Shown: piece by piece, positions 4,863-20,379 of the stretch | How the letters are laid out: every line of letters begins with the position of its first letter | Numbering within the stretch: position 1 is the stretch's first letter | Source: an uncultured Bacteroidia bacterium | Lineage (GTDB): Bacteria > Bacteroidota > Bacteroidia > Bacteroidales > F082 | NCBI GenBank assembly: GCA_902774365.1 | Contig: CACYHX010000004.1 | Span: 29,066 to 93,065, forward strand | Direction of reading: 5' to 3' | DNA: 64,000 nt | Program-made: the position numbers and the translations under genes | Notes under the pieces: model-generated | What the model was told of the DNA's origin: nothing | The model's database searches: none | Seen by the model: only the letters and a program-made list of their open reading frames with translations

Positions 4863-6095
4863 TTAGATTTTACGGATAGCTAGACAAGCATTGTGTCCGC
4901 CGAAACCCAACGAGTTGGAGATGGCGAGGTCCAAATTCACCTTGACGGGCGTGTTGGGTGTGTAGTTGAGGTCACATTCCGGGTCAGGCTCGTCCAAGTT
5001 GATGGTCGGAGGGACGATGCCGTTGTTCAATGCCATCACGCTGATGACGAGCTCGATGGCACCAGCGGCGCCGAGGGCGTGACCCATCTCCGACTTGGTG
5101 GAGCTGATGTGGGCCTTGTAAGCCTCGTCACCCATGGCAATCTTGATGGCGCGGGTCTCGCCGCTGTCGTTCATCGGGGTACCCGTGCCGTGGGCGTTGA
5201 TATAGATGCTCTCCCCTGCCTTGAACTGGGCCTCTTCGAGAGCCTGCTTGATGGCCAGACTCTGCGTGGTGCCATCGGGACGCGGGGCGGTGCTGTGGTA
5301 AGCGTCGCACGAGTTGCCGTAACCGCAAAGCTCGGCATATATCGTTGCGCCACGCTTTTTGGCGTGTTCATACTCTTCGAGGAGGACGATGCCCGAGCCT
5401 TCGGCGATGACGAAGCCTGCGCGGTTCTTGTTGAACGGCAAAGAGGCATGTTTCGGGTCTTCAGCCTTGGTAAGGGCCTTGCAGTTGGCGAAGCCACCGA
5501 TGGACACGGGGTTGATACCTGCCTCTGAGCCACCCGTGATAATGGCGTCGGCATAGCCGTGCTTGATGGCACGATAGGCCTCGCCGATGCTGTGGGTACC
5601 CGTGGCGCAGGCCGTCACGATGGGCACGCAGGGACCTTGGGCGTTGTAGCGGATGGCCACGCTACCCGAAGCCTGGTTGCCAATCATGGTGGGGATCATC
5701 ATGGGCGAGATCCAACGCGCACCTTCTTCATAATAGGTCTTGACACCTTTCATGATGGTGTCGAAGCCGCCGATGCCGGAGCCTACATACACGCCCAGGC
5801 GTTCAGGACTCATCTGCAGGTCTTCGTTATCCTTCATGGCTTGATAGGCGGCAGCCAAAGTATATACGGCAAAACGGTCGTTGCGTTTGACAAAAGCTTT
5901 CTCGACGCCACAAGCCTCGGGGTCAAAATCCTTCAGCTCGGCAGCGATTTTCACGGGGAGGTCGCTGGCATCAAACGACTTGATGAAGTCGATGCCGCAA
6001 TAGCCCTTCATCAGGTTATCCCAAATGGTCGGCAGGTCGTTGCCAATCGGTGAGACGGCACCCATGCCAGTGATTACTACTCTTCTATTATTCAT
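4863..6095 (-). CDS. fabF: 3-oxoacyl-[ACP] synthase II (FabF)
   Basis: The 410-residue condensing enzyme elongates acyl-ACP with malonyl-ACP. The Cys-His-His triad is visible: Cys163 in VTACATGTHS, His302 in NAHGTGTP and His339 in KSEMGHALGAAG. Full family length. It sits 22 bp downstream of fabH, so both are probably on one mRNA, and 183 bp upstream of fabZ across a double hairpin that may set differential expression. Confidence 0.93.
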   Translation of the reverse strand: MNNRRVVITGMGAVSPIGNDLPTIWDNLMKGYCGIDFIKSFDASDLPVKIAAELKDFDPEACGVEKAFVKRNDRFAVYTLAAAYQAMKDNEDLQMSPERLGVYVGSGIGGFDTIMKGVKTYYEEGARWISPMMIPTMIGNQASGSVAIRYNAQGPCVPIVTACATGTHSIGEAYRAIKHGYADAIITGGSEAGINPVSIGGFANCKALTKAEDPKHASLPFNKNRAGFVIAEGSGIVLLEEYEHAKKRGATIYAELCGYGNSCDAYHSTAPRPDGTTQSLAIKQALEEAQFKAGESIYINAHGTGTPMNDSGETRAIKIAMGDEAYKAHISSTKSEMGHALGAAGAIELVISVMALNNGIVPPTINLDEPDPECDLNYTPNTPVKVNLDLAISNSLGFGGHNACLAIRKI

Positions 6096-8849: not shown

Positions 8850-11315
8850 TTACATTCCACCCATGCCCTGAGGTGCACTGCCTGATTCACCCTCGCCTTG
8901 GCGAGCCCTCTGCTCCAGTTCCATCTTACCGAAACGGAAGGTCAAGCCGACGGAGACGCTGCGGCTGTTGTACTTCGAATTAGAGGTGGACTGCACATAC
9001 GGGCTGTTGTTTGTATTGCCCCAACTGTTCCAGTTGAAGATATCGTTGGCGTTGACATACACTGACAACTTGCGGTCGAAGAAGTCGGCGCGAAGGCCGG
9101 CATTGATGCCATAGCGGGCATGACGCTCGCTGAACAAGGACTGCGTCGGGGAACTGTAATAGCCCGAAGCCGTCACCTCAAGTTTGTTCCACAGTTTGGC
9201 CCAGAGATTCAGACGGAAACTGTACGACCACTTGTTGGACTCGTAAGGGTTGCCGTTATATTCGGTGTAAATGTAGGAATCGTAAAGGTTGGCATAGAAG
9301 CGCAGGTTGAAGAAACCACTCGGGCGATACATCACGTTGGCCTCCAAGCCCGTGCTGTGGCTCTTGCCCACGTTGACCGGATATGAATACTGAACCACTC
9401 GGTTGTATAGCCAATGGTATTCCGACAAGGATATTGTGTTGACATCGTTGGTCTTGCCTCGATAGTAAGCCGACAAGCCCACCGAACCGAACTTGTCCCA
9501 GTATTTGGTCCAGCCCGCCTCAACGGAATGGGTGTAGATGCGCTCCAAGTCGGGGTTACCCGTGCTGTAATCATCTTCGTGATACATGGGGAACTTGCTC
9601 AATTGCGCTGCTTCGGGAGCGGCAATGCGCATCGTGTAACTCAACCTGAAGTTGTGCATCGACTTGGTGCGATACGACAGGTGCAGCGACGGCCTGACGC
9701 TGAAGAAAGGCGTATGGAAATCGTAATTGGTGGTGTCATTAGGGAAAGAGGAGAGATATTTGCCGCTCACCAACTCACTGACGAAACGCACACCAGGCTT
9801 GATTGTAAAGCCACCGAACTTGTGCTGCACGGTGATGAAAGCCTCGTTGTTCAGTTTGCTGAACCTGGCCTCGTAGGAACGGTAAACGTCGTTTTCCCAA
9901 TTGTAAGGGCCGATGAAATTCGGGTTGGTTACGGTGTCGGTAACGAGGATTTCCGTTTCAGGGTCGTAGCCAATCGTGTAGCCGACCGAAATCTCTCCGT
10001 TCTCGGAATAAGGGCGGTTATAGATGATTTCGCCCTCCCCACCTATAGAACGATCTCCGCCGTCCTGCCGCATCACCTTTTGATAGGCCGTCGGTGAGGT
10101 GAATTCCCTTGTAATCGCACCTGTATTGCGATAGCCCCAGCCCATGCCGTTGACGCTAACGGAAAGATTGTGGCCATTGTTGTCGAACTTATGCTGGTAG
10201 TACAAGCCACCGTTGGCAAAGAAACTGCGGCTTCGCGCACTGCTGTTTTCGTGTATGTTGGTCAACAAAGTGTCGGGGAAAAACTCTTCCCTCATCATCC
10301 ACGCGTCGTTGGTCTGGGTGCTCCAATTGGGCCATCCGCCAAGCCAGAGGTTCAGGCTGTTGGCCGTGTCAATCTCATAATCGATGCTGAAAAATCCGCC
10401 CGCGTTGTAGCCTGGGTTATTGTATTTCGACGAGTCGATCTCGTGGCTGGCCAACACACCTTCATCTGTGAACAAGGATTGATCCACAGAATAACGGCCT
10501 TTCCAAACGGAATAGCCACCGTTGACGTAAGCGTTCACCGTCAGTTTTTCGTTCGACCACACATAGGAAGCCCACGGGCCGACGTAAGGATTTGTCGAGG
10601 CGTTCACGCCAAAGCTGAAGAACTCGTTCTTTTGGATTTTGGCATTGGTCACGATGTTGATGATGCCGTCGGCCTTGGAGCCGTAGCGGGCCGAGGGGTT
10701 GGTGATGACCTCCACGCGGTCGAGGCTGTTGGCGGGCAAGGTTTGGATGTAAGTCTTAAGGTTCTCTGCGGTCATGTGCGAAGGCTTGTCGTTGATCCAC
10801 ACCTCGACACTTGAGGTGCCGCGCAAAGTGATGTTGCCTTCCACGTCGACCTCCACGCCGGGCGCGTTCTGCAAGGCATCGGACAGCGTACCCGTCTGGA
10901 TGCTCGGGTCTTCGGCGACGTTATACATGGTCTTCTCCCCTTCCACAGCAAACATGGGCCGTTTCTCGGTGATGGTCACCTCGCTGAGTTTGGTGGAGCC
11001 TTCCTTGAGTTTCAGTTGGCCGAGGTCTTGCTTCCCATTCACGGTCAGTTCTTGCTCAAAGGTCTGGAAGCCGATAGCAGAGACGGTTAAACGATAGTCG
11101 CCGTTGGGAGCCAACAATTCGAACTTACCCTTGTCGTCGGAAGCGGCACCGCTGACGAAGACACTGTCGGCCTGACGGAACAAGCCTACATTGACGAAGG
11201 GAATGCCCTTGCCGTTGGCATCCTCGACGATGGTACCTGTGATTTTGTTTTGGGCAAAAGCCGTAGATGAAAGAGTCAATAATGCGATAATGAAAGGTAG
11301 AACTAGTTTTTTCAT
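8850..11315 (-). CDS. TonB-dependent-receptor-like outer-membrane beta-barrel protein
   Basis: The 821-residue protein has an N-terminal signal peptide (ending near STAFAQ), a carboxypeptidase-regulatory-like beta-sandwich (about 25-105), a plug-like region around 110-220 (NAPGVEVDVEGNITLRGTSS) and a long beta-barrel, ending with a Gly/Gln-rich tail (SAPQGMGGM). The barrel looks like the outer-membrane beta-barrel family widespread in Bacteroidota, related to but distinct from SusC. The substrate cannot be inferred because no SusD-like or enzyme partner is adjacent. The gene is monocistronic: the downstream neighbour is convergent and the upstream gene ends 160 bp away. Confidence 0.85.
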   Translation of the reverse strand: MKKLVLPFIIALLTLSSTAFAQNKITGTIVEDANGKGIPFVNVGLFRQADSVFVSGAASDDKGKFELLAPNGDYRLTVSAIGFQTFEQELTVNGKQDLGQLKLKEGSTKLSEVTITEKRPMFAVEGEKTMYNVAEDPSIQTGTLSDALQNAPGVEVDVEGNITLRGTSSVEVWINDKPSHMTAENLKTYIQTLPANSLDRVEVITNPSARYGSKADGIINIVTNAKIQKNEFFSFGVNASTNPYVGPWASYVWSNEKLTVNAYVNGGYSVWKGRYSVDQSLFTDEGVLASHEIDSSKYNNPGYNAGGFFSIDYEIDTANSLNLWLGGWPNWSTQTNDAWMMREEFFPDTLLTNIHENSSARSRSFFANGGLYYQHKFDNNGHNLSVSVNGMGWGYRNTGAITREFTSPTAYQKVMRQDGGDRSIGGEGEIIYNRPYSENGEISVGYTIGYDPETEILVTDTVTNPNFIGPYNWENDVYRSYEARFSKLNNEAFITVQHKFGGFTIKPGVRFVSELVSGKYLSSFPNDTTNYDFHTPFFSVRPSLHLSYRTKSMHNFRLSYTMRIAAPEAAQLSKFPMYHEDDYSTGNPDLERIYTHSVEAGWTKYWDKFGSVGLSAYYRGKTNDVNTISLSEYHWLYNRVVQYSYPVNVGKSHSTGLEANVMYRPSGFFNLRFYANLYDSYIYTEYNGNPYESNKWSYSFRLNLWAKLWNKLEVTASGYYSSPTQSLFSERHARYGINAGLRADFFDRKLSVYVNANDIFNWNSWGNTNNSPYVQSTSNSKYNSRSVSVGLTFRFGKMELEQRARQGEGESGSAPQGMGGM

Positions 11316-13176: not shown

Positions 13177-14293
13177 ATGATCACTGCTGACCAACTTAAA
13201 GACTTATGTAAGAGGATTGATGCCTTGAGGAGGTATCTTTGACGTCGACAGACGTACCATCGAAGCTCAGGAATTAGACGAAAAGACCCAAGACCCGCAG
13301 TTTTGGGCTGATGCCAAGGCCGCCGAAGCCACCATGAAGAAGGTGCGCGAGGTGAAGGGCTGGCTTAACGGTTACAAGGAAGCCGAAGACGCAGGCAACG
13401 ACCTCGCCGTGCTCTTCGATTTCGCCAAGGAAGGCGAGGCCACCGAAGAAGAAGTGGACGAGCAATACAACGCCACCATCCAAATCGTGGAGAACCTGGA
13501 GTTCAAGAACATGCTGCGTGAGGAAGCCGACCCCATGAGCGCCGTATTGAAAATCAACGCGGGCGCAGGCGGCACCGAGGCCCAAGACTGGGCACAGATG
13601 CTCATGCGCATGTATATGCGTTATGCCGAAAACCACAAATACAAACTCACCATCTCCAACCTTCTGGAAGCCGACGAGGCCGGCATCAAGTCGGTGACGA
13701 TGAAACTCGAAGGCGACTATGCCTACGGCTACCTGAAAGGCGAAAACGGCGTCCACCGCTTGGTGCGCGTCAGCCCGTACAACGCCCAAGGCAAACGCAT
13801 GACCTCGTTCGCCTCGGTGTTCGTCACCCCGCTCGTCGACGACACGATTGAGATCGTCGTCGAACAGTCACGTCTGTCGTGGGACACCTTCCGTAGCGGC
13901 GGTGCCGGCGGTCAGAACGTGAACAAGGTGGAGTCGGGCGTGCGCTTGCGTTACCAATACAAAGACCCCTACACAGGCGAGGAAGAAGAAATCCTCATTG
14001 AGAACACCGAGACCCGCGACCAACCCAAGAACCGCGAGAACGCCTTGCGCCTCTTGAAGTCGCAACTCTACGACCGCGAGATGCGGCACCGTATGGAGGA
14101 GCAGAACAAGATTGAGGCGGGCAAGATGAAGATTGAATGGGGCAGCCAAATCCGCTCCTATGTCTTCGACGACCGCCGTGTGAAAGACCACCGCACCAAT
14201 TATCAAACCTCCGACGTGCAAGGCGTCATGGACGGCAACATCGATGCATTCTTGAAGGCGTACCTCATGGAGTTTGGAGGCAAAAAAGAATAA
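13177..14293 (+). CDS. prfB: Peptide chain release factor 2, with programmed +1 frameshift
   Basis: RF2 terminates translation at UGA and UAA. The first frame (13177-13239) encodes 21 residues and meets TGA at 13240-13242. Skipping T13240 gives the second frame from GAC at 13241 to the TAA at 14291-14293, for a 371-residue product. The GGQ loop is visible as GGAGGQNVNKVE, and the codon-recognition region is present. An AGGAGG, TAT, CTT, TGA, C arrangement is the classical autoregulatory frameshift site: low RF2 slows termination and favours the shift. The last seven codons form the integration site of the following mobile element, which leaves the protein sequence intact. Confidence 0.95.
13228..13243 (+). 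promoter_or_regulatory. RF2 programmed +1 frameshift site
   Basis: AGGAGG (13228-13233), a three-base spacer, CTT at 13237 and the in-frame TGA plus C (13240-13243) reproduce the known frameshift signal. The spacing between the SD-like element and CTT matches the E. coli arrangement. Confidence 0.95.
14273..14293 (+). repeat. Left attachment core (attL), within the prfB 3' end
   Basis: This 21-bp core encodes the last six residues and stop of prfB, and is identical to 19428-19448. Sequence left of it belongs to prfB, and right of it to the element. Confidence 0.85.
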
Positions 14294-14332
14294 TCTGTTT
14301 TTCAAACATTTACAAGTCGTTTTCTTTTAATA

Positions 14333-14397
14333 AAACTTAAACATATCGGCATAATTCTTGTATTAAACTTAAACGATACCTTAATCAAAACTTAATC
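14333..14397 (+). repeat. AAACTTAAAC boxes at the left end (candidate integrase arm sites)
   Basis: Exact AAACTTAAAC at 14333-14342 and 14365-14374, and a one-mismatch copy AAACTTAATC at 14388-14397, all in the same orientation. Another exact copy is at 19345-19354 near the right end. They lie between the core and the integrase start codon. Confidence 0.6.
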
Positions 14398-14400
14398 GAA

Positions 14401-15741
14401 ATGCCGAAAAAACAAAGTGCAAGTATCTCATTGAAGATGCTGAAAAAAGAAAAGGACGGAAAACACCCTATCGTTTTACGTGTGTGTTGGAAGGGTCAAA
14501 TCGCCTCCCGATACACTAATGTATGGGTCGAGCCTAAGTATTGGAACGGAACAGAAATCAGCAAGAAATGCCCCAATTATGCCGCCTTGAACATTCTATT
14601 GAAGAAAGTATATAATGAAGCGGATGGGAGGCGTTTAGACTATGAAGCAAAAGAAATTGAGTACACAGCATACGACATCGTTTCTGAAAAAGATATTCCA
14701 AAATGCAAGTTAGAGTTTTCCGCTCTTTACCAAGCATTAGTTGAAGAAAAGAAACTTAGAGCTCCAAACAATTATCATAGAACATATAAGAAACTGAAGG
14801 AATACAGCCGTCTTAGCGAAATCCAACTCACAATGCTCACCGCTGAGTACTTACAAGGATTTGCCAATTGGATAGTACAACAAGGATTGAAAAACGGCTA
14901 TGCTGCCTTCTGCCTTCGATATATCCGCTCCGTATGGAACTATGCCATTAAAGAGCGACTTGTTTCCGCTGATGACTACCCCTTTGGCGATAACAACGGC
15001 TTTTGGAGGAGGTACAAGCAAGATGAACGCAAAACGGCTATTACAAAGCACCAATTAGCAGGCATTATTGGCTATTTCTGTGAAGTGTATTATGACAAGA
15101 GCTCTATGCTTATGGGAATAATACAGCCCAAAAGTACGGTCAAATACGATTCACTATATAGTTATTGGTTTGCCTTGAATTTTTGGCTTACTATCTACTA
15201 TATGCAAGGCCTATCCCCCATAGATGTGCTTAATCTAAAACGAAATCAAATTCAGTACATCAAGGATGATAATGATGAAGGATATTATCGTATTACATGC
15301 GTTAGGAGAGCAAAAACAGGTGTTGAAGTGCCAATAGCAATCAAAGCAGATGGAATTGTGGACTTGCTCATCACGCCATACTATCAGCGCAAGGATGGCG
15401 AATATCTATACCCCCTTTTCAACCATTTACCCAAAGGAACGAGCAAGGAAACCGCAAAAAACAATCTTATTGCATACAATAGCAAGACTTTGAAAGTAAT
15501 ATGGCAAAGAATAAACAAATATGCCTTTGACCACGGTTGGCAAGATTGGGAAGATATACCAAGCGACACTACCCTTTATTCCGCACGGCACTCTTTCGCT
15601 ACGCATTACTTGGAAAGTGGCGGTAATGTGGTCGGTTTGGCAACAATGCTCGGCAGAAAAGTAGCAAACATTGATGTTTATGTGAAGCAATTAACAAGCG
15701 ATGATTATATCTTGAATCTTAAAAAGGATATGGCATTATGA
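14401..15741 (+). CDS. int: Tyrosine recombinase/integrase of the element
   Basis: The 446-residue protein starts with an arm-binding-like domain (about 1-90), then a SAM-like core-binding domain (about 105-210) and a catalytic domain (about 215-440). The C-terminal catalytic cluster is visible: R396-H397 in SARHSFATHYLESGG and the presumed nucleophile Tyr427 in ANIDVYVKQ. At the usual first catalytic Arg, the motif reads MQGLSPIDVL with Gln269. Bacteroidota integrases of the IntDOT type also lack this arginine. It reads away from prfB and overlaps the next gene by four bases (ATGA), so the two are translationally coupled. It is the likely enzyme for integration at the prfB core. Confidence 0.88.
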   Translation: MPKKQSASISLKMLKKEKDGKHPIVLRVCWKGQIASRYTNVWVEPKYWNGTEISKKCPNYAALNILLKKVYNEADGRRLDYEAKEIEYTAYDIVSEKDIPKCKLEFSALYQALVEEKKLRAPNNYHRTYKKLKEYSRLSEIQLTMLTAEYLQGFANWIVQQGLKNGYAAFCLRYIRSVWNYAIKERLVSADDYPFGDNNGFWRRYKQDERKTAITKHQLAGIIGYFCEVYYDKSSMLMGIIQPKSTVKYDSLYSYWFALNFWLTIYYMQGLSPIDVLNLKRNQIQYIKDDNDEGYYRITCVRRAKTGVEVPIAIKADGIVDLLITPYYQRKDGEYLYPLFNHLPKGTSKETAKNNLIAYNSKTLKVIWQRINKYAFDHGWQDWEDIPSDTTLYSARHSFATHYLESGGNVVGLATMLGRKVANIDVYVKQLTSDDYILNLKKDMAL

Positions 15742-17243
15742 CACAAACGGCAAACCTCCACCCCATCCAAATATACCAATTCAAAGGCTTTGATATGGAT
15801 GCCTTTGTTGATATGTACTTATATGCTATTACTCCACACGAAACCATAAATGAAGATACTATATCCGTATTCAGAGCAGCGAAAACCAAGATGAGTGGGG
15901 CGAAGCGTGGCGCAAAGTCAAGGTCAGTTATTGAAAACAAATGCCGATACTTGCAAGATGCCATTATCCGTATGGCGAACAGAAAGCAAGATGATAAAAC
16001 CTTTTCGCTCAACGCTGACATTCTCAAATCAGTCATAGGGAAAGAGTATAAGACAATGATAGATGTCATCGTTGAAATGAAATATATCTCGATTGGCGAT
16101 GGCAAATGGGGTAAAGGTAAACGCTATTACTATCGGCAAGGTAAATACTCTATGTTATACACATTGAACGATGTTGAAGTGTATCTAACAGAGCCGTTCA
16201 CCAACTTGAAGATTCAGGAATATAAGGAAAAGACCATTGAAAAGGTCAAAGAGCAATTTGAACTTTACACCAAGCCCGAAATCGTCAGGCAATTTGGTGA
16301 ATCATTCCTTAAATCCTATCTCACATCGCTCAACAAAATCAAAATTGAAGATGAGCAGGGGCTGAAAGAATACATAAAGACAAAGACAGCCGATAATCCA
16401 AATTCAAATCCATATTATAGATATGTTTCTATTGAATTAAAGAACAAGAATAAGTCAATTTATAGAATTGATGATAGTCATAGGATTTACCACATTCTCA
16501 CTAACCTTGACAGAAACATTAAACAATATCTCAATATAGACTTATCGATAGATTGTAAAAATAGCCATCCATTATTATTTAATTATTTCATTTTTAATAA
16601 ATTAAATATTTCTTGTTCTCAATCTTTTACTATTTCATCCTTTATTCATTCTATCGATAATCCATCCTTCCATAATGATGGGAAAAATCTTCGTAATTTA
16701 CTAATATCCAATAATATAGAAATTGAACAAGTTGCAAAAATGAAGGATGATGAACTTGAATACATCTACAAGACCTCCAAAGGGCTGTTATGGGATGAGA
16801 TTTGCGAAGCCCATCCCGAATTGGATAGGAAGGAGGTCAAGGTGGCAATGTTTCAGGCGGTTTTCTACTCTCATTCACCAATAGCAGACAGATGGAACGC
16901 CTATGCAAGAGAGTTCAAAAGCCAATATCCTTCGGTATATAAGTTGATAGGCGATTGGAAAAGGAAGAAAACGAGCGAAGCGGTCAAGAATTATATGGCT
17001 GAGCATCATTTACCCATTGACAAAGGCTCTGCATCGCTCAGCGTGGCAATGATGGCGTTGGAAGCCGACATTTTCACCAACATTCTAAAACGGCTTTACT
17101 CAAAAAGGTGGAACGCCCTCCACATTCACGATTGCATCATCATTCCCAAGACCACCAACAAGAATCAGCCTACAAGGGATGAGGTCGTTGAGATTATGCG
17201 GGATATTTATCGCTCGTTTGGACTTGCGCCAACATTCGATTAG
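15738..17243 (+). CDS. Family-A-polymerase-like palm protein of the element (replication protein?)
   Basis: The 501-residue protein has an N-terminal region (about 60-150) that looks like a winged-helix Rep or initiator domain. The C-terminal half contains, in order, candidates for family-A polymerase motifs. Motif A is SIDCKNSHPLL (Asp272). Motif B is R364-x3-K368-x3-F372 with Phe376-Tyr377. A LEAD segment follows near 441, and motif C is LHIHDCIIIP (His464-Asp465). No exonuclease domain is present. The arrangement matches the catalytic palm and O-helix of Pol I-like enzymes; similarity to single-subunit RNA polymerases is also possible. The gene overlaps int by four bases. Polymerase activity is inference. 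Third positions and the region 16430-16740 are especially AT-rich. Confidence 0.55.
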   Translation: MTQTANLHPIQIYQFKGFDMDAFVDMYLYAITPHETINEDTISVFRAAKTKMSGAKRGAKSRSVIENKCRYLQDAIIRMANRKQDDKTFSLNADILKSVIGKEYKTMIDVIVEMKYISIGDGKWGKGKRYYYRQGKYSMLYTLNDVEVYLTEPFTNLKIQEYKEKTIEKVKEQFELYTKPEIVRQFGESFLKSYLTSLNKIKIEDEQGLKEYIKTKTADNPNSNPYYRYVSIELKNKNKSIYRIDDSHRIYHILTNLDRNIKQYLNIDLSIDCKNSHPLLFNYFIFNKLNISCSQSFTISSFIHSIDNPSFHNDGKNLRNLLISNNIEIEQVAKMKDDELEYIYKTSKGLLWDEICEAHPELDRKEVKVAMFQAVFYSHSPIADRWNAYAREFKSQYPSVYKLIGDWKRKKTSEAVKNYMAEHHLPIDKGSASLSVAMMALEADIFTNILKRLYSKRWNALHIHDCIIIPKTTNKNQPTRDEVVEIMRDIYRSFGLAPTFD

Positions 17244-17258
17244 TATTCCATGGCACTT

Positions 17259-17353
17259 ATTCAAATAATAGTTGTATTCAAATAAATCTGCAAAGCCCCT
17301 GAATACGATTTTTGTTTTGTATTCAATTTTTTCTTTGATTTATTTGCATACAA
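17259..17353. repeat. Inverted and direct TATTCAAATAA-type repeats (candidate resolvase site or origin)
   Basis: TTGTATTCAAATAAATC (17272-17288) and GATTTATTTGCATACAA (17337-17353) are inverted copies with one mismatch in 17. Related half-copies occur near 17259 (TTATTCAAATAAT) and 17319 (TGTATTCAATT). The array fills the gap before the serine recombinase gene, where resolvases usually have their res site. It also lies just after the polymerase-like gene, so an origin is an alternative. Confidence 0.6.
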
Positions 17354-17376
17354 TTCAAAAAAAAGTATTATCTTTG
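17343..17376 (+). promoter_or_regulatory. Promoter of the serine recombinase gene
   Basis: TTTG (17343-17346) and TATCTTTG (17369-17376) are separated by 22 bp. The -33 box overlaps the right arm of the inverted repeat, so a protein bound there could repress the gene. Confidence 0.65.
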
Positions 17377-17399
17377 CAGTGTCAAATCATCAAACAACA

Positions 17400-18029
17400 A
17401 TGAAAGCAGTAATCTACGCCCGTGTTAGTAGCACAACAGATAGACAGAACACCGAAAGACAAGTTGCAGACCTGAAAGAATATGCAACATACGCCAAAAT
17501 GGAAGTGGTCAAGGTCTTTGAAGAAAAGATTAGTGGAGCAAAGAAAAACGCTGAGCGACCCGTCCTTCAGCAAGCTTTGGACTACTGCAAGGTTGAGAAA
17601 ATAGATATGTTATTGGTGTCAGAATTGAGCCGATTGGGAAGAAATTCCTTTGAGGTGTTGGAAACTATTAAGGGCTTGGTCGATGCCAAAATCAACCTGT
17701 ATATGCAGAAGGAAAAACTGACTTTGCTCGATGATAATGGCGAGCCTTCCATCTTCGCCCCTATTATGTTGGCAACGCTCAGCACCTGTGCGCAACTTGA
17801 ACGAGAGAATATCAAATTCCGTCTGAATAGTGGAAGGCAACAATACATTGCCAAAGGCGGCAAACTTGGTCGAAAAGAAGGTTCTATCAAGACCAAAGAA
17901 CAAAAGAAAGAAGAATATGGCGAGGTTATCAGTCTATTGAAAAAGGGCTATTCTATCCGCAACGTGGCCAAACTTTGCAATGTATCAAATTCGACCGTTC
18001 AACGGTTGAAGAAAGACTTTCAACTATGA
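17400..18029 (+). CDS. Serine recombinase (resolvase/invertase family)
   Basis: The 209-residue protein starts MKAVIYARVSS. A GTG seven codons upstream is in frame but lies at the predicted transcription start, so ATG 17400 is preferred. The catalytic domain (about 1-140) has the nucleophile Ser10 in YARVS and the SELSRLGRN motif; a short C-terminal helix-turn-helix follows (GYSIRNVAKLCNVSNSTVQRL). Length fits small resolvases, not large integrases. It probably resolves dimers or inverts DNA at the repeats just upstream, or acts as a second recombination module of the element; this is inference. A terminator follows directly. Confidence 0.9.
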   Translation: MKAVIYARVSSTTDRQNTERQVADLKEYATYAKMEVVKVFEEKISGAKKNAERPVLQQALDYCKVEKIDMLLVSELSRLGRNSFEVLETIKGLVDAKINLYMQKEKLTLLDDNGEPSIFAPIMLATLSTCAQLERENIKFRLNSGRQQYIAKGGKLGRKEGSIKTKEQKKEEYGEVISLLKKGYSIRNVAKLCNVSNSTVQRLKKDFQL

Positions 18030-18037
18030 TAACAAAG

Positions 18038-18058
18038 GGAGGTGCAAGCCTCCTTTTT
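18038..18058 (+). terminator. Terminator after the serine recombinase
   Basis: GGAGG-TGCAAG-CCTCC hairpin followed by a T run, nine bases after the stop codon. Confidence 0.75.
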
Positions 18059-18076
18059 TATTTTTTTTATTTTTTC

Positions 18077-18105
18077 TTGCACAATCCAAATTCTTCCTAT
18101 ATTTG
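18077..18105 (+). promoter_or_regulatory. Promoter upstream of a long untranslated stretch
   Basis: TTG (18077-18079) and TATATTTG (18098-18105) with 18 bp between. The next gene starts only at 18429, giving a leader of over 300 nt or a separate small RNA. Confidence 0.55.
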
Positions 18106-18111
18106 CATTGC

Positions 18112-18428
18112 CAAACCGAGAGAAAACGGATTGGTGAAGAAAGCGCATTTTCGCTTTATTCCATTCGGTGAAACTTGGACAATTTTACTATAAGGATTGG
18201 AATAAAGGAAGATGATGGCTTCCATCGGTTTGTAATCGTTTTAATACACGATACATCCCTGTGGAGCAATCATTTAACTTTATTTTGTTCTTATAGGGGT
18301 GTCCAAGCCCATCACCGACAAGATAGGGCAAAGATGAATGGCTCCACTTTCTTCATTTGTCAAGCGTATTCCCATTTGAGCCATTAAGGACAAAATGAAG
18401 AACTAAGTTCAACTAAACCTAACACCCC
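18112..18428 (+). other. Apparently transcribed non-coding stretch before the lipoprotein gene
   Basis: No convincing reading frame. Small hairpins are visible, for example AAAGCG/CGCTTT near 18140 and GGAAG/CTTCC near 18210. It could be a long 5' leader or a small RNA; no known riboswitch was recognised. Confidence 0.35.
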
Positions 18429-18881
18429 ATGAAAAGATTAAAGTATGCAGTGATACTCCTGCTTGGTTTGAGTATGGCAACAATGATGACTTCCTGCAAC
18501 AAAGAAAGCAGTTATAAAGACAAGATTGTTGGTGTATGGCAGACGACAAAAGAAACAATTTACACATACGACTTATCGGGAAGTCTTATTAATGAGAGTT
18601 CGTATGACGATTATTCAGAAGACGAGAATTATAGATGGGAGTTCTTTTCTGAAGGCCTTGTCAAAACGTCAGGTGAGATTTGGCACAAAACTAATTCTAA
18701 AGACTATTTTATTTCTTATGTAATTGACGGAAACCGACTTATCTTTTCTCTTATTGGAGACACGGAAGAATATACAATTCTAGAATTAACAAATTCAACA
18801 ATGGAATGGGAACAGGAATATGTGAGCTCTTATTCCAATTGCAAATATGTTTACAGATATGAATTCAAGAAAGTGAAATAG
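18429..18881 (+). CDS. Small lipoprotein with lipocalin-like body, element cargo
   Basis: The 150-residue protein has a lipoprotein signal peptide with a lipobox ending TSC (Cys23). A domain of about 120 residues begins KIVGVWQTTKETIY and has a WEFF/LTNSTMEWEQEY pattern, like the lipocalin-like lipoproteins common in Bacteroidota. It is probably exported and lipid-anchored. Its place in the element is as a cargo or fitness gene; function unknown. A strong terminator follows. Confidence 0.7.
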   Translation: MKRLKYAVILLLGLSMATMMTSCNKESSYKDKIVGVWQTTKETIYTYDLSGSLINESSYDDYSEDENYRWEFFSEGLVKTSGEIWHKTNSKDYFISYVIDGNRLIFSLIGDTEEYTILELTNSTMEWEQEYVSSYSNCKYVYRYEFKKVK

Positions 18882-18911
18882 ACAAACGCTATCGAAAGAC
18901 TGATAATAAGG

Positions 18912-18946
18912 AAACGCCCATTTGCATTTTGCATTTGGGCGTTTTT
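18912..18946 (+). terminator. Terminator after the lipoprotein gene
   Basis: AAACGCCCA and TGGGCGTTT arms with additional TTGCA/TGCA pairing, ending in T residues, 31 bp beyond the stop. Confidence 0.75.
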
Positions 18947-19367
18947 GCTATGCTGCATTGGATTGAATGATGAAAAATTTTCGTCAAACAATGGGGGTTG
19001 AAGGGGGAAATTTAGCAGTCCCTACAACTCCCAAGTCGGATAACGCAGAAATGAAAGTTGAAAAACACCCTGCCTCTCACACGGCCAACGGTTATATACG
19101 GCACTTTGGCCGCTTAGCGATGGCATGGAAATCCAAATCAAAATCAGTTATCCATGCTTCTATATTAAATTGAATTTCAATTATTTAAGCACTCCTTCAG
19201 TATAACAATACGGTCAAATAACACAAACTAATTTACTATCACATTTTTGGTAGAGAAAATGAATACAAATAAGATGGTGTTGTTTGAAAAAGAATTTCGT
19301 ATTTTTGCAGTCGCTAACAAGAACGAGCCTTTATGCTTAAACAAAAACTTAAACAAAGGAATTGACT
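18947..19367 (+). other. Right-end non-coding region of the element
   Basis: No supported gene; a 68-codon frame at 18967 lacks a recognisable family or ribosome site. A TATTTTTG -7-like box lies at about 19302-19309, upstream of the mini-ORF. An AAACTTAAAC box is at 19345-19354, and a partial GCTTAAAC just before it. Confidence 0.4.
19345..19354 (+). repeat. AAACTTAAAC box near the right end
   Basis: Exact match, in the same orientation, to the two boxes at the left end (14333, 14365). Confidence 0.55.
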
Positions 19368-19448
19368 ATGAATAAAATAATTGAAAATAAGATATTTACA
19401 TCGATATCCTTAAACTATCTGATGGAATTTGGAGGCAAAAAAGAATAA
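19368..19448 (+). CDS. 26-codon reading frame fused to a copy of the prfB tail (attR)
   Basis: An ATG preceded by AAAGGAA opens a 26-codon frame that ends YLMEFGGKKE and stop, exactly the last ten residues of RF2 in the correct frame. Outside the 21-bp core, the codons for Y, L and E differ synonymously from the prfB copy. It may be a real small gene, or a relic of a former host's prfB 3' end carried as the element's attachment site. Expression is unknown. Confidence 0.4.
   Translation: MNKIIENKIFTSISLNYLMEFGGKKE
19428..19448 (+). repeat. Right attachment core (attR)
   Basis: Identical over 21 bp to 14273-14293. Sequence from 19449 onward is presumably the original chromosomal sequence downstream of prfB. 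Confidence 0.85.
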
Positions 19449-19512: not shown

Positions 19513-19935
19513 ATGAAAAAGCTTATTCTCGCTTTCATTGCCATCGTTAGCTTTGGCTTTTCCACGGCAATGGCACAAAACACCAACACCAATCCAGCCA
19601 TCACACAGTTTGTGACGCAGCATTTCCCCAACGCCACCGTTCAGATGGTGATGCCTGACGAAGACGACATCGACGTCGTGTTGAACGACTACACCAAAAT
19701 CGAGTTCCGTCTCAACAACGAATGGAAGAAAGTCGACTGTGAGCACTCCACGACCTTTACTGCCGTGCCTGCCACAATCGTCCCCGAGCAAATCACAGCC
19801 TACGTGAACGCCAATTTCCCTGGCGCCATCATCAAAAAACTGGAAAAGAAATTCAGAGGTTGGGAGATTGAGCTGAACAACGGCCTTGAACTGAAGTTCA
19901 ACAGCAATTTCAAAGTAATGGAAATCGACGACTAA
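19513..19935 (+). CDS. Secreted PepSY-like protein (putative beta-lactamase-inhibitor-like fold)
   Basis: The 140-residue protein has a signal peptide ending near TAMAQ and two similar halves. Each has an I-x-Q-FV/YV-x-x-xFP-x-A motif (about 30-45 and 94-109), typical of the PepSY-like family of periplasmic proteins in Bacteroidota. Function is unknown; members are thought to bind or inhibit other proteins. The next gene, 12 bp downstream, is a paralogue, indicating a local duplication in one operon. Confidence 0.75.
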   Translation: MKKLILAFIAIVSFGFSTAMAQNTNTNPAITQFVTQHFPNATVQMVMPDEDDIDVVLNDYTKIEFRLNNEWKKVDCEHSTTFTAVPATIVPEQITAYVNANFPGAIIKKLEKKFRGWEIELNNGLELKFNSNFKVMEIDD

Positions 19936-19947
19936 TCAGAAGCGACC

Positions 19948-20379
19948 ATGAAAAAAGTTATCATCGTAGCCCTTTTTATCGGCTTCGCCCTGACCAACAC
20001 GTCATGCAATAGTGACAAGAAAGCACAAGCCATCAACGAATTTGTAAGAGCTTACTTCCCTGACACCGAAGTCATTGCCAACATCAAAGACGGCCTCGAT
20101 TGCGACGTCACCCTCAGCGACTACACCCAAATCGGGTTCGATGGCAACCTGTTCGGCAAAATCGAATGGGACGAGGTGGACTGCCGTCACGCTTCGCTTT
20201 CCACGGCTGTGCCCGCCGCATTGGTTCCTGTCGAAATCAGCAACTATGTGAGCCGCATCCACGGAAGCCAAACCATCACGAAAATCTCTAAGGACAACCG
20301 TGGTTGGGACATCGAGCTGAGCAACGGCATCGAAATCGAGTTCGACAAAAGATACAACGTCGTTGATTTCGACGATTGA
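19948..20379 (+). CDS. PepSY-like lipoprotein, paralogue of the preceding gene
   Basis: The 143-residue protein shares with its neighbour the layout INEFVRAYFPDTEV..., EVDCRHASLSTAVPAALVP and a C-terminal GWDIELSNGIEIEF segment. Its signal peptide ends in a lipobox-like NTSC (Cys20), so it is probably lipid-anchored while its partner is soluble. A terminator follows 20 bp downstream. Confidence 0.75.
   Translation: MKKVIIVALFIGFALTNTSCNSDKKAQAINEFVRAYFPDTEVIANIKDGLDCDVTLSDYTQIGFDGNLFGKIEWDEVDCRHASLSTAVPAALVPVEISNYVSRIHGSQTITKISKDNRGWDIELSNGIEIEFDKRYNVVDFDD

Follow-up and report, generated by a model that had tools for sequence, protein, structure and literature searches.

The question raised by this locus is what the AT-rich segment of 5,155 bp downstream of prfB (the release factor 2, RF2, gene) represents, and how it could have entered the end of a translation gene that is still intact. 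The DNA analysed (hereafter the window) is a 64-kb stretch inside the 2.8-Mb draft genome (79 contigs) of an uncultured Bacteroidia bacterium (assembly GCA_902774365.1, contig CACYHX010000004.1). On sequence comparison, the segment is very probably a site-specific integrative element inserted in the prfB 3' end, as indicated by its borders, an empty site in a relative, the use of the same site by three elements, open genes that appear to be under purifying selection, and movement between species. Its polymerase and gene set place it among the TV-Pol mobile elements, known since 2008 (Iyer, Abhiman and Aravind, PMC2579912, accessible part).

A preliminary description, made from the letters of the window, had proposed that the end of prfB is duplicated exactly over 21 bp at 19428-19448, that an integrase gene adjoins the left copy, that the interval is richer in A+T than its surroundings, and that RF2 is kept whole by the insertion, and these statements stand. 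The 21-bp core (TTTGGAGGCAAAAAAGAATAA) occurs as exact copies at 14273-14293 and 19428-19448, there is no further site with three or fewer mismatches elsewhere across the 64 kb, and two matches were obtained in none of 100 shuffled sequences. The duplication is longer than proposed, the core being part of a 33-bp repeat (14261-14293 and 19416-19448) in which 30 of 33 positions match (91%) and all three differences are third codon positions; prfB itself is intact. The integrase open reading frame (ORF) begins 107 bp past the prfB stop codon, and the G+C content is 37.7% within the interval versus 51.5% in the approximately 5-kb flanks on each side. Direct repeats derived from the target gene, as a tyrosine integrase would leave, are present at both borders.

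The same description had proposed that the prfB tail serves as the chromosomal attachment site (attB), that in relatives lacking the insert prfB should be followed directly by the sequence found from 19449, and that tail copies should flank similar elements; all three proposals are supported by the relatives. When prfB was searched in 60 of them (49 matched, 30 loci kept), the closest relative found besides the window itself (G114, prfB 96%) had an empty site: its prfB runs directly into a PepSY-like gene, the counterpart of the window gene at 19513, and 454 of 470 positions agree between G114 and the window flanks once these are joined over the insert. Two other genomes carry prfB-tail copies at both borders of an insert at this site. 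In G128 the insert is a sister element (polymerase 91% and integrase 93% identical); in G057 it is a 1.8-kb internally deleted remnant that has lost the integrase gene, the polymerase gene and most of the resolvase gene, and keeps both arms and both tail copies.

The two RF2 tails of the window appear to differ in origin. The right copy is probably the native prfB tail, because over 33 bp it is identical to the prfB end in G114, whose site is empty; the left copy probably arrived with the element, at least in its part downstream of the crossover. The left copies in the window, G128 and G057 are all GAGTTTGGAGG; the right copies vary by host (GAATTTGGAGG in the window, GAGTTTGGAGG in G057 and GAGTTCGGCGG in G128). 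Uniform left copies and host-variable right copies fit a crossover upstream of these bases and an element-borne left tail.

The protein encoded next to the integrase was named by none of the sequence searches, nothing meaningful being found in Pfam, PHROGs, NCBIfam or PDB (single-sequence and profile), and its identity was settled by alignment and fold search. An alignment of 16 polymerase sequences contains 34 invariant columns, and R249, D272, D338, R364, K368 and D465 are invariant in 16/16. As described in the accessible part of PMC2579912, the TV-Pol hallmarks are a hairpin Arg, two palm Asp, a fingers Asp and an RxxxK motif; these are matched by R249, D272 with D465, D338, and R364/K368, respectively (assigned by order and motif from the paper's description), so that the full set is present. 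With the AlphaFold model (predicted local distance difference test, pLDDT, 83.2; predicted template modelling score, pTM, 0.82), a PDB fold search listed A-family DNA polymerases at the top and POLRMT (mitochondrial RNA polymerase) lower down, with a single match below E 0.001 (best E 4.9e-4, TM 0.30/0.24), and a BFVD fold search gave 15 matches below E 0.001 (best E 2.5e-12, TM 0.52/0.62), which argues for a relationship to superfamily A polymerases. By residue pattern and predicted fold, the window polymerase is assigned to the TV-Pol type. Resolvase and integrase neighbours, and a proposed role in priming plus synthesis, are given for TV-Pol in the accessible part of PMC2579912, and the window element has both neighbours. 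The preliminary gene list (recombinases, a polymerase-like protein and one lipoprotein) is thus confirmed, with the polymerase-like protein refined to a known type, and its statement that the element has no conjugation or capsid genes holds among the element ORFs (Pfam and PHROGs; NCBIfam for conjugation).

Of the 173 family genomes searched, four contained the polymerase, the window's own included (the G066 match is partial, distant and at the end of a contig), and two contained the integrase at a cut-off of E 1e-30. The right-arm DNA matched 42 genomes, with long matches (E < 1e-58) only in the window, G057 and G128 and short ones in the other 39 (best E 1.8e-10). A polymerase profile run against 393 genomes of the order matched six, one of them the window genome; some of these matches were weak or broken. 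When genome contigs were scanned, 15 polymerase loci were confirmed from 38 pattern matches, all bearing what we take to be Bacteroidales-type names. At 12 of these 15 loci the neighbourhood of the polymerase gene encodes an integrase-like protein, and at five a serine-recombinase relative (some loci are cut by contig ends); 9/10 integrase candidates sent to Pfam have integrase domains. Border repeats were sought around 12 of the 15 loci, in integrase or element neighbourhoods only (L063 and L069 fall outside these, and L057 is the G128 element), and were found for L056, L058 and L068 at tRNA 3' ends and for L065 (17 bp). L058 is flanked by copies of a tRNA-Glu end (28 nt, 82%) and L068 by tRNA-Met copies sharing at least 40 exact bases; the element of genome G134 is flanked by the 3' end of tRNA-Ser and a partial copy thereof. 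In L059 and L060 the integrase gene lies beside what is presumably a guaA-like gene, and a second guaA tail was looked for there and not found. The exact repeat of L065 is at 1052-1068 and 11177-11193, one copy being near the 5' end of what we take to be a phosphatase-like gene, and a 5'-end target is possible in this case.

G134 carries the polymerase and resolvase genes elsewhere in its genome (the gene after its prfB is the PepSY-like one), and its comparison with G128 suggests that the modules of these elements can be exchanged. The polymerase genes of the G128 (prfB) and G134 (tRNA-Ser) elements are 97.9% identical; homology begins 3 nt before the polymerase start codon and extends through the resolvase gene (2,293 bp at 94.7%), and a second homologous stretch of 274 bp (90.1%) lies in the non-coding region on the right-hand side of the cargo. 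Both the prfB-type and the G134 integrases carry tyrosine-integrase domains, and the two types were not aligned with each other by blastp (best E 0.18, window versus G134). The polymerase-resolvase part has moved between species: dS (synonymous divergence) between G128 and G134 is 0.078 for the polymerase and 1.03 for prfB. The right arm is likewise very similar, any two of window, G128 and G057 agreeing at 115 of 117 positions, at prfB identities of 83.0-92.4%; constraint may add to this likeness. In the comparison of the window with G128, dS is lower for the polymerase (0.28) than for the integrase (0.67) and the recombinase (0.94); this could mean that the polymerase has a history of its own, and it suggests mixed ancestry.

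The part that differs between G128 and G134 (right arm, attachment site, left arm and integrase gene) would be one contiguous block in the circular form, which suggests that a swap of the integrase-attachment block can re-aim the same replication module to another target gene; this idea is based on a single close pair and on distant elements whose integrases differ. We tentatively propose, with more doubt than confidence, a Bacteroidales family of replicating TV-Pol elements of about 5-10 kb, in which the integrase and attP (the attachment site of the circle) would form an exchangeable cassette joined at the polymerase start codon, targets would include prfB, tRNA-Ser and others, and the prfB form would couple the integrase to the RF2 transcript while integrated.

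Table 1. Features of the prfB locus and its insert (window coordinates)
Feature	Position	Strand	Remarks
prfB (RF2), target gene	13177..14293	+	CTTTGAC at about 13237-13243 is presumably the +1 frameshift site
Left border repeat (attL)	14261..14293	+	Final prfB codons and stop; part downstream of the crossover probably element-supplied
Arm-like repeats	14333..14397	+	AAACTTAAAC, AAACTTAAAC, AAACTTAATC
Tyrosine integrase	14401..15741	+	446 aa
TV-Pol-like A-family polymerase	15738..17243	+	501 aa
res-like pair	17274..17351		33-bp sites with inverted borders, 17274-17306 and 17319-17351; putative function
Small serine recombinase (resolvase/invertase type)	17400..18029	+	209 aa from ATG; PF00239, E 1.8e-34
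Terminator-like hairpin after recombinase gene	18034..18057	+	
Cargo, lipoprotein-like protein	18429..18881	+	150 aa; weak lipocalin-like match below Pfam cut-off
Non-coding region, candidate origin or origin of transfer (oriT)	18967..19270		Partly conserved with G128, G057 and G134
Right arm	19300..19415	+	115/117 positions alike among window, G128 and G057
Right border repeat (attR)	19416..19448	+	Probably displaced native prfB tail

The features of the element are collected in Table 1. The arm-binding and SAM-like domains of the integrase were matched in Pfam; by eye, box II of this protein is YSARHSF, and a serine seems to occupy the position of the first conserved arginine. IntDOT of Bacteroides also has a serine in place of this arginine. 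The arm-like repeats, with one more copy near the right border (19345-19354), are putative Int binding sites; their arrangement is identical in G128, and G057 keeps three of the four left and right copies. In the right arm, an TATTTTTG motif (19300-19307) is kept in the three elements and might act in a promoter, and a 27-codon frame (19368-19448 including the stop), which enters the RF2 tail in frame and is open in G128 and G057 too, might be translated. A full Bacteroidetes-type promoter was considered there and found weak, no -33 box of the usual consensus being seen at the usual spacing; a sigma-70 scan was at shuffle level (14 found versus 17.3 expected) and was not used. The res-like stretch is highly conserved in G128 and G134, and the pair is kept in three elements. 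The hairpin scan that yielded the terminator-like structure found 8 hairpins versus 4.5 expected in shuffles. At the corresponding place in G128, G134 and G057 there is no nucleotide match to the cargo region, and the G134 cargo includes one protein with a weak excisionase-domain match, below cut-off.

Downstream of the element, at 19513-20379, are two genes in tandem that encode small secreted proteins, the first of them PepSY-like; a PepSY-like gene is found 3' of prfB in several relatives and a transporter-like gene in others. In another relative, G046, three additional copies of the final ~112 bp of prfB occur, fused head-on to a NAD-synthetase-like (nadE-like) fragment (L037, 13-127 and 5181-5295; L038, 1-115; also L094). 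They adjoin what we take to be lipoprotein genes and an AAA-ATPase-like gene and look like a repeated rearranged cassette; an excised circle was considered as their source and rejected, as they are a repeated junction of the prfB tail and the nadE-like fragment. In L094 of this genome, the 24 bp right after the prfB stop (5720-5743) are identical at 23/24 positions to the left end of the G128 element, possibly the trace of a former insertion.

The proposed course of events is as follows. The tyrosine integrase would have recombined a circular form with the prfB 3' end, the crossover most likely falling around the YTGATGG stretch of the YLMEF codons. The native RF2 tail was then most likely pushed to the right border and the element-borne tail taken into use, prfB staying intact because the element carries its own RF2 tail. 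The integrase gene might be expressed by read-through from prfB when integrated and via the att junction when circular. After excision by Int, the TV-Pol protein would prime and copy the circle, with the non-coding region at 18967-19270 as a candidate origin or oriT, and the serine recombinase would resolve multimers at the res-like pair. The space between the recombinase gene and the non-coding region would be a cargo slot.

Several observations weigh against this interpretation or parts of it. The catalytic domain of the integrase is below the Pfam cut-off, the fold matches of the polymerase have modest TM-scores, and the PDB profile search by sequence returned no polymerase. Border repeats were found in only 4/12 loci, with none for L059, L060, L061, L062, L064, L066, L067 and L070. 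As to the crossover, an empty relative (G113, locus L013) natively has TACCTCATGGAG (TACCTC ATG GAG), the codons of the window left copy, and GAG is present in the right copies of G057 and G128 as well. The left tail up to GAG could therefore be host sequence, and the crossover could fall within the 21-bp core as an alternative to the upstream position. Finally, neither an excisionase nor a relaxase was recognised in the window element, and the YTGATGG overlap stretch is unequal at the two borders (CTCATGG versus CTGATGG).

The last two points, together with the clear decay of the G057 copy, would also fit an immobile relic, fixed in the lineage after the ability to excise was lost. We regard such a relic as rather unlikely: all three core genes of the window element are open, with ratios of nonsynonymous to synonymous substitution (dN/dS) well below 1 against G128 (integrase 0.048, polymerase 0.155, serine recombinase 0.060), arms and border repeats are retained, and the polymerase-resolvase part has moved between species. 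Alternatively, the segment may be integrative and mobilizable, with the non-coding region acting as an oriT on which a conjugative element works in trans. The conservation of this region among elements with different cargo and integrases and the evident movement between species speak for an oriT; no relaxase or conjugation gene, by which a mobilizable or conjugative element would be recognised, was found among the element ORFs (Pfam, PHROGs, NCBIfam), and Rfam gave 0 matches on the whole window. We consider this explanation, too, somewhat improbable.

A phage satellite or prophage remnant would also combine an integrase, a replication protein and cargo, and phage polymerases share the fold. 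This origin is very unlikely, and a phage or plasmid origin was rejected, as no capsid, packaging or terminase gene marking a prophage or satellite is found among the element ORFs searched, a polymerase tblastn gave no match in 50,697 phage or 72,556 plasmid records, and two viral-contig scans confirmed no relative (all these searches reaching only moderately close relatives). That the downstream genes are ancestral, the second core having arisen by local duplication of the prfB tail, is hardly credible, in spite of the prfB-tail duplications of another kind in G046, and is already contradicted by G114, which lacks the entire interval in otherwise collinear flanks, and by three elements with the same two borders and an integrase or its remnants inside.

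The element can be compared with systems already described. Like the TV-Pol elements in the accessible part of PMC2579912, it has a minimal A-family polymerase with the conserved Arg, two Asp, fingers Asp and RxxxK, and resolvase and lambda-type integrase neighbours, and, again as in these, no nuclease partner was seen in it; unlike them, it lacks a D5 helicase. The border example given there is a Brucella element with direct repeats of ~200 nt, whereas here the border is a tyrosine-integrase site in prfB. With the CcPol-MP and PolA-SSB primases of staphylococcal cassette chromosome (SCC) and related elements (PMC10061031, accessible part), it shares an A-family polymerase on a mobile element, possibly a primase; in contrast to these, no single-stranded DNA-binding protein (SSB) or helicase partner was seen, and the recombinase is a tyrosine integrase instead of the Ccr serine recombinases.

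Integrative and mobilizable elements with tyrosine integrases insert site-specifically into conserved genes at their 3' ends and have a slot for cargo; the window element shares both features, and relaxase or mobilisation genes were not found in it. Integrative and conjugative elements or phages also insert in the 3' ends of protein genes such as guaA, and SXT in prfC, with an element-borne end rejoining the gene. Here the gene is likewise rejoined by an element-borne end, and the target is prfB, which was not found as an integrase target in the literature searched, mostly that outside subscription journals. The new features are the prfB target, the base-level borders, and the G128/G134 pair with near-identical polymerases and integrases that were not aligned by blastp. 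TV-Pol elements, described in 2008 from gene neighbourhoods, hereby gain exact borders, a small gene set and an intact translation gene as target; the proposed primase-polymerase role becomes testable in a plasmid assay because the element is small, and the G128/G134 pair, with close polymerases and differing integrases, allows the joint movement of integrase and attP as a single block to be tested.

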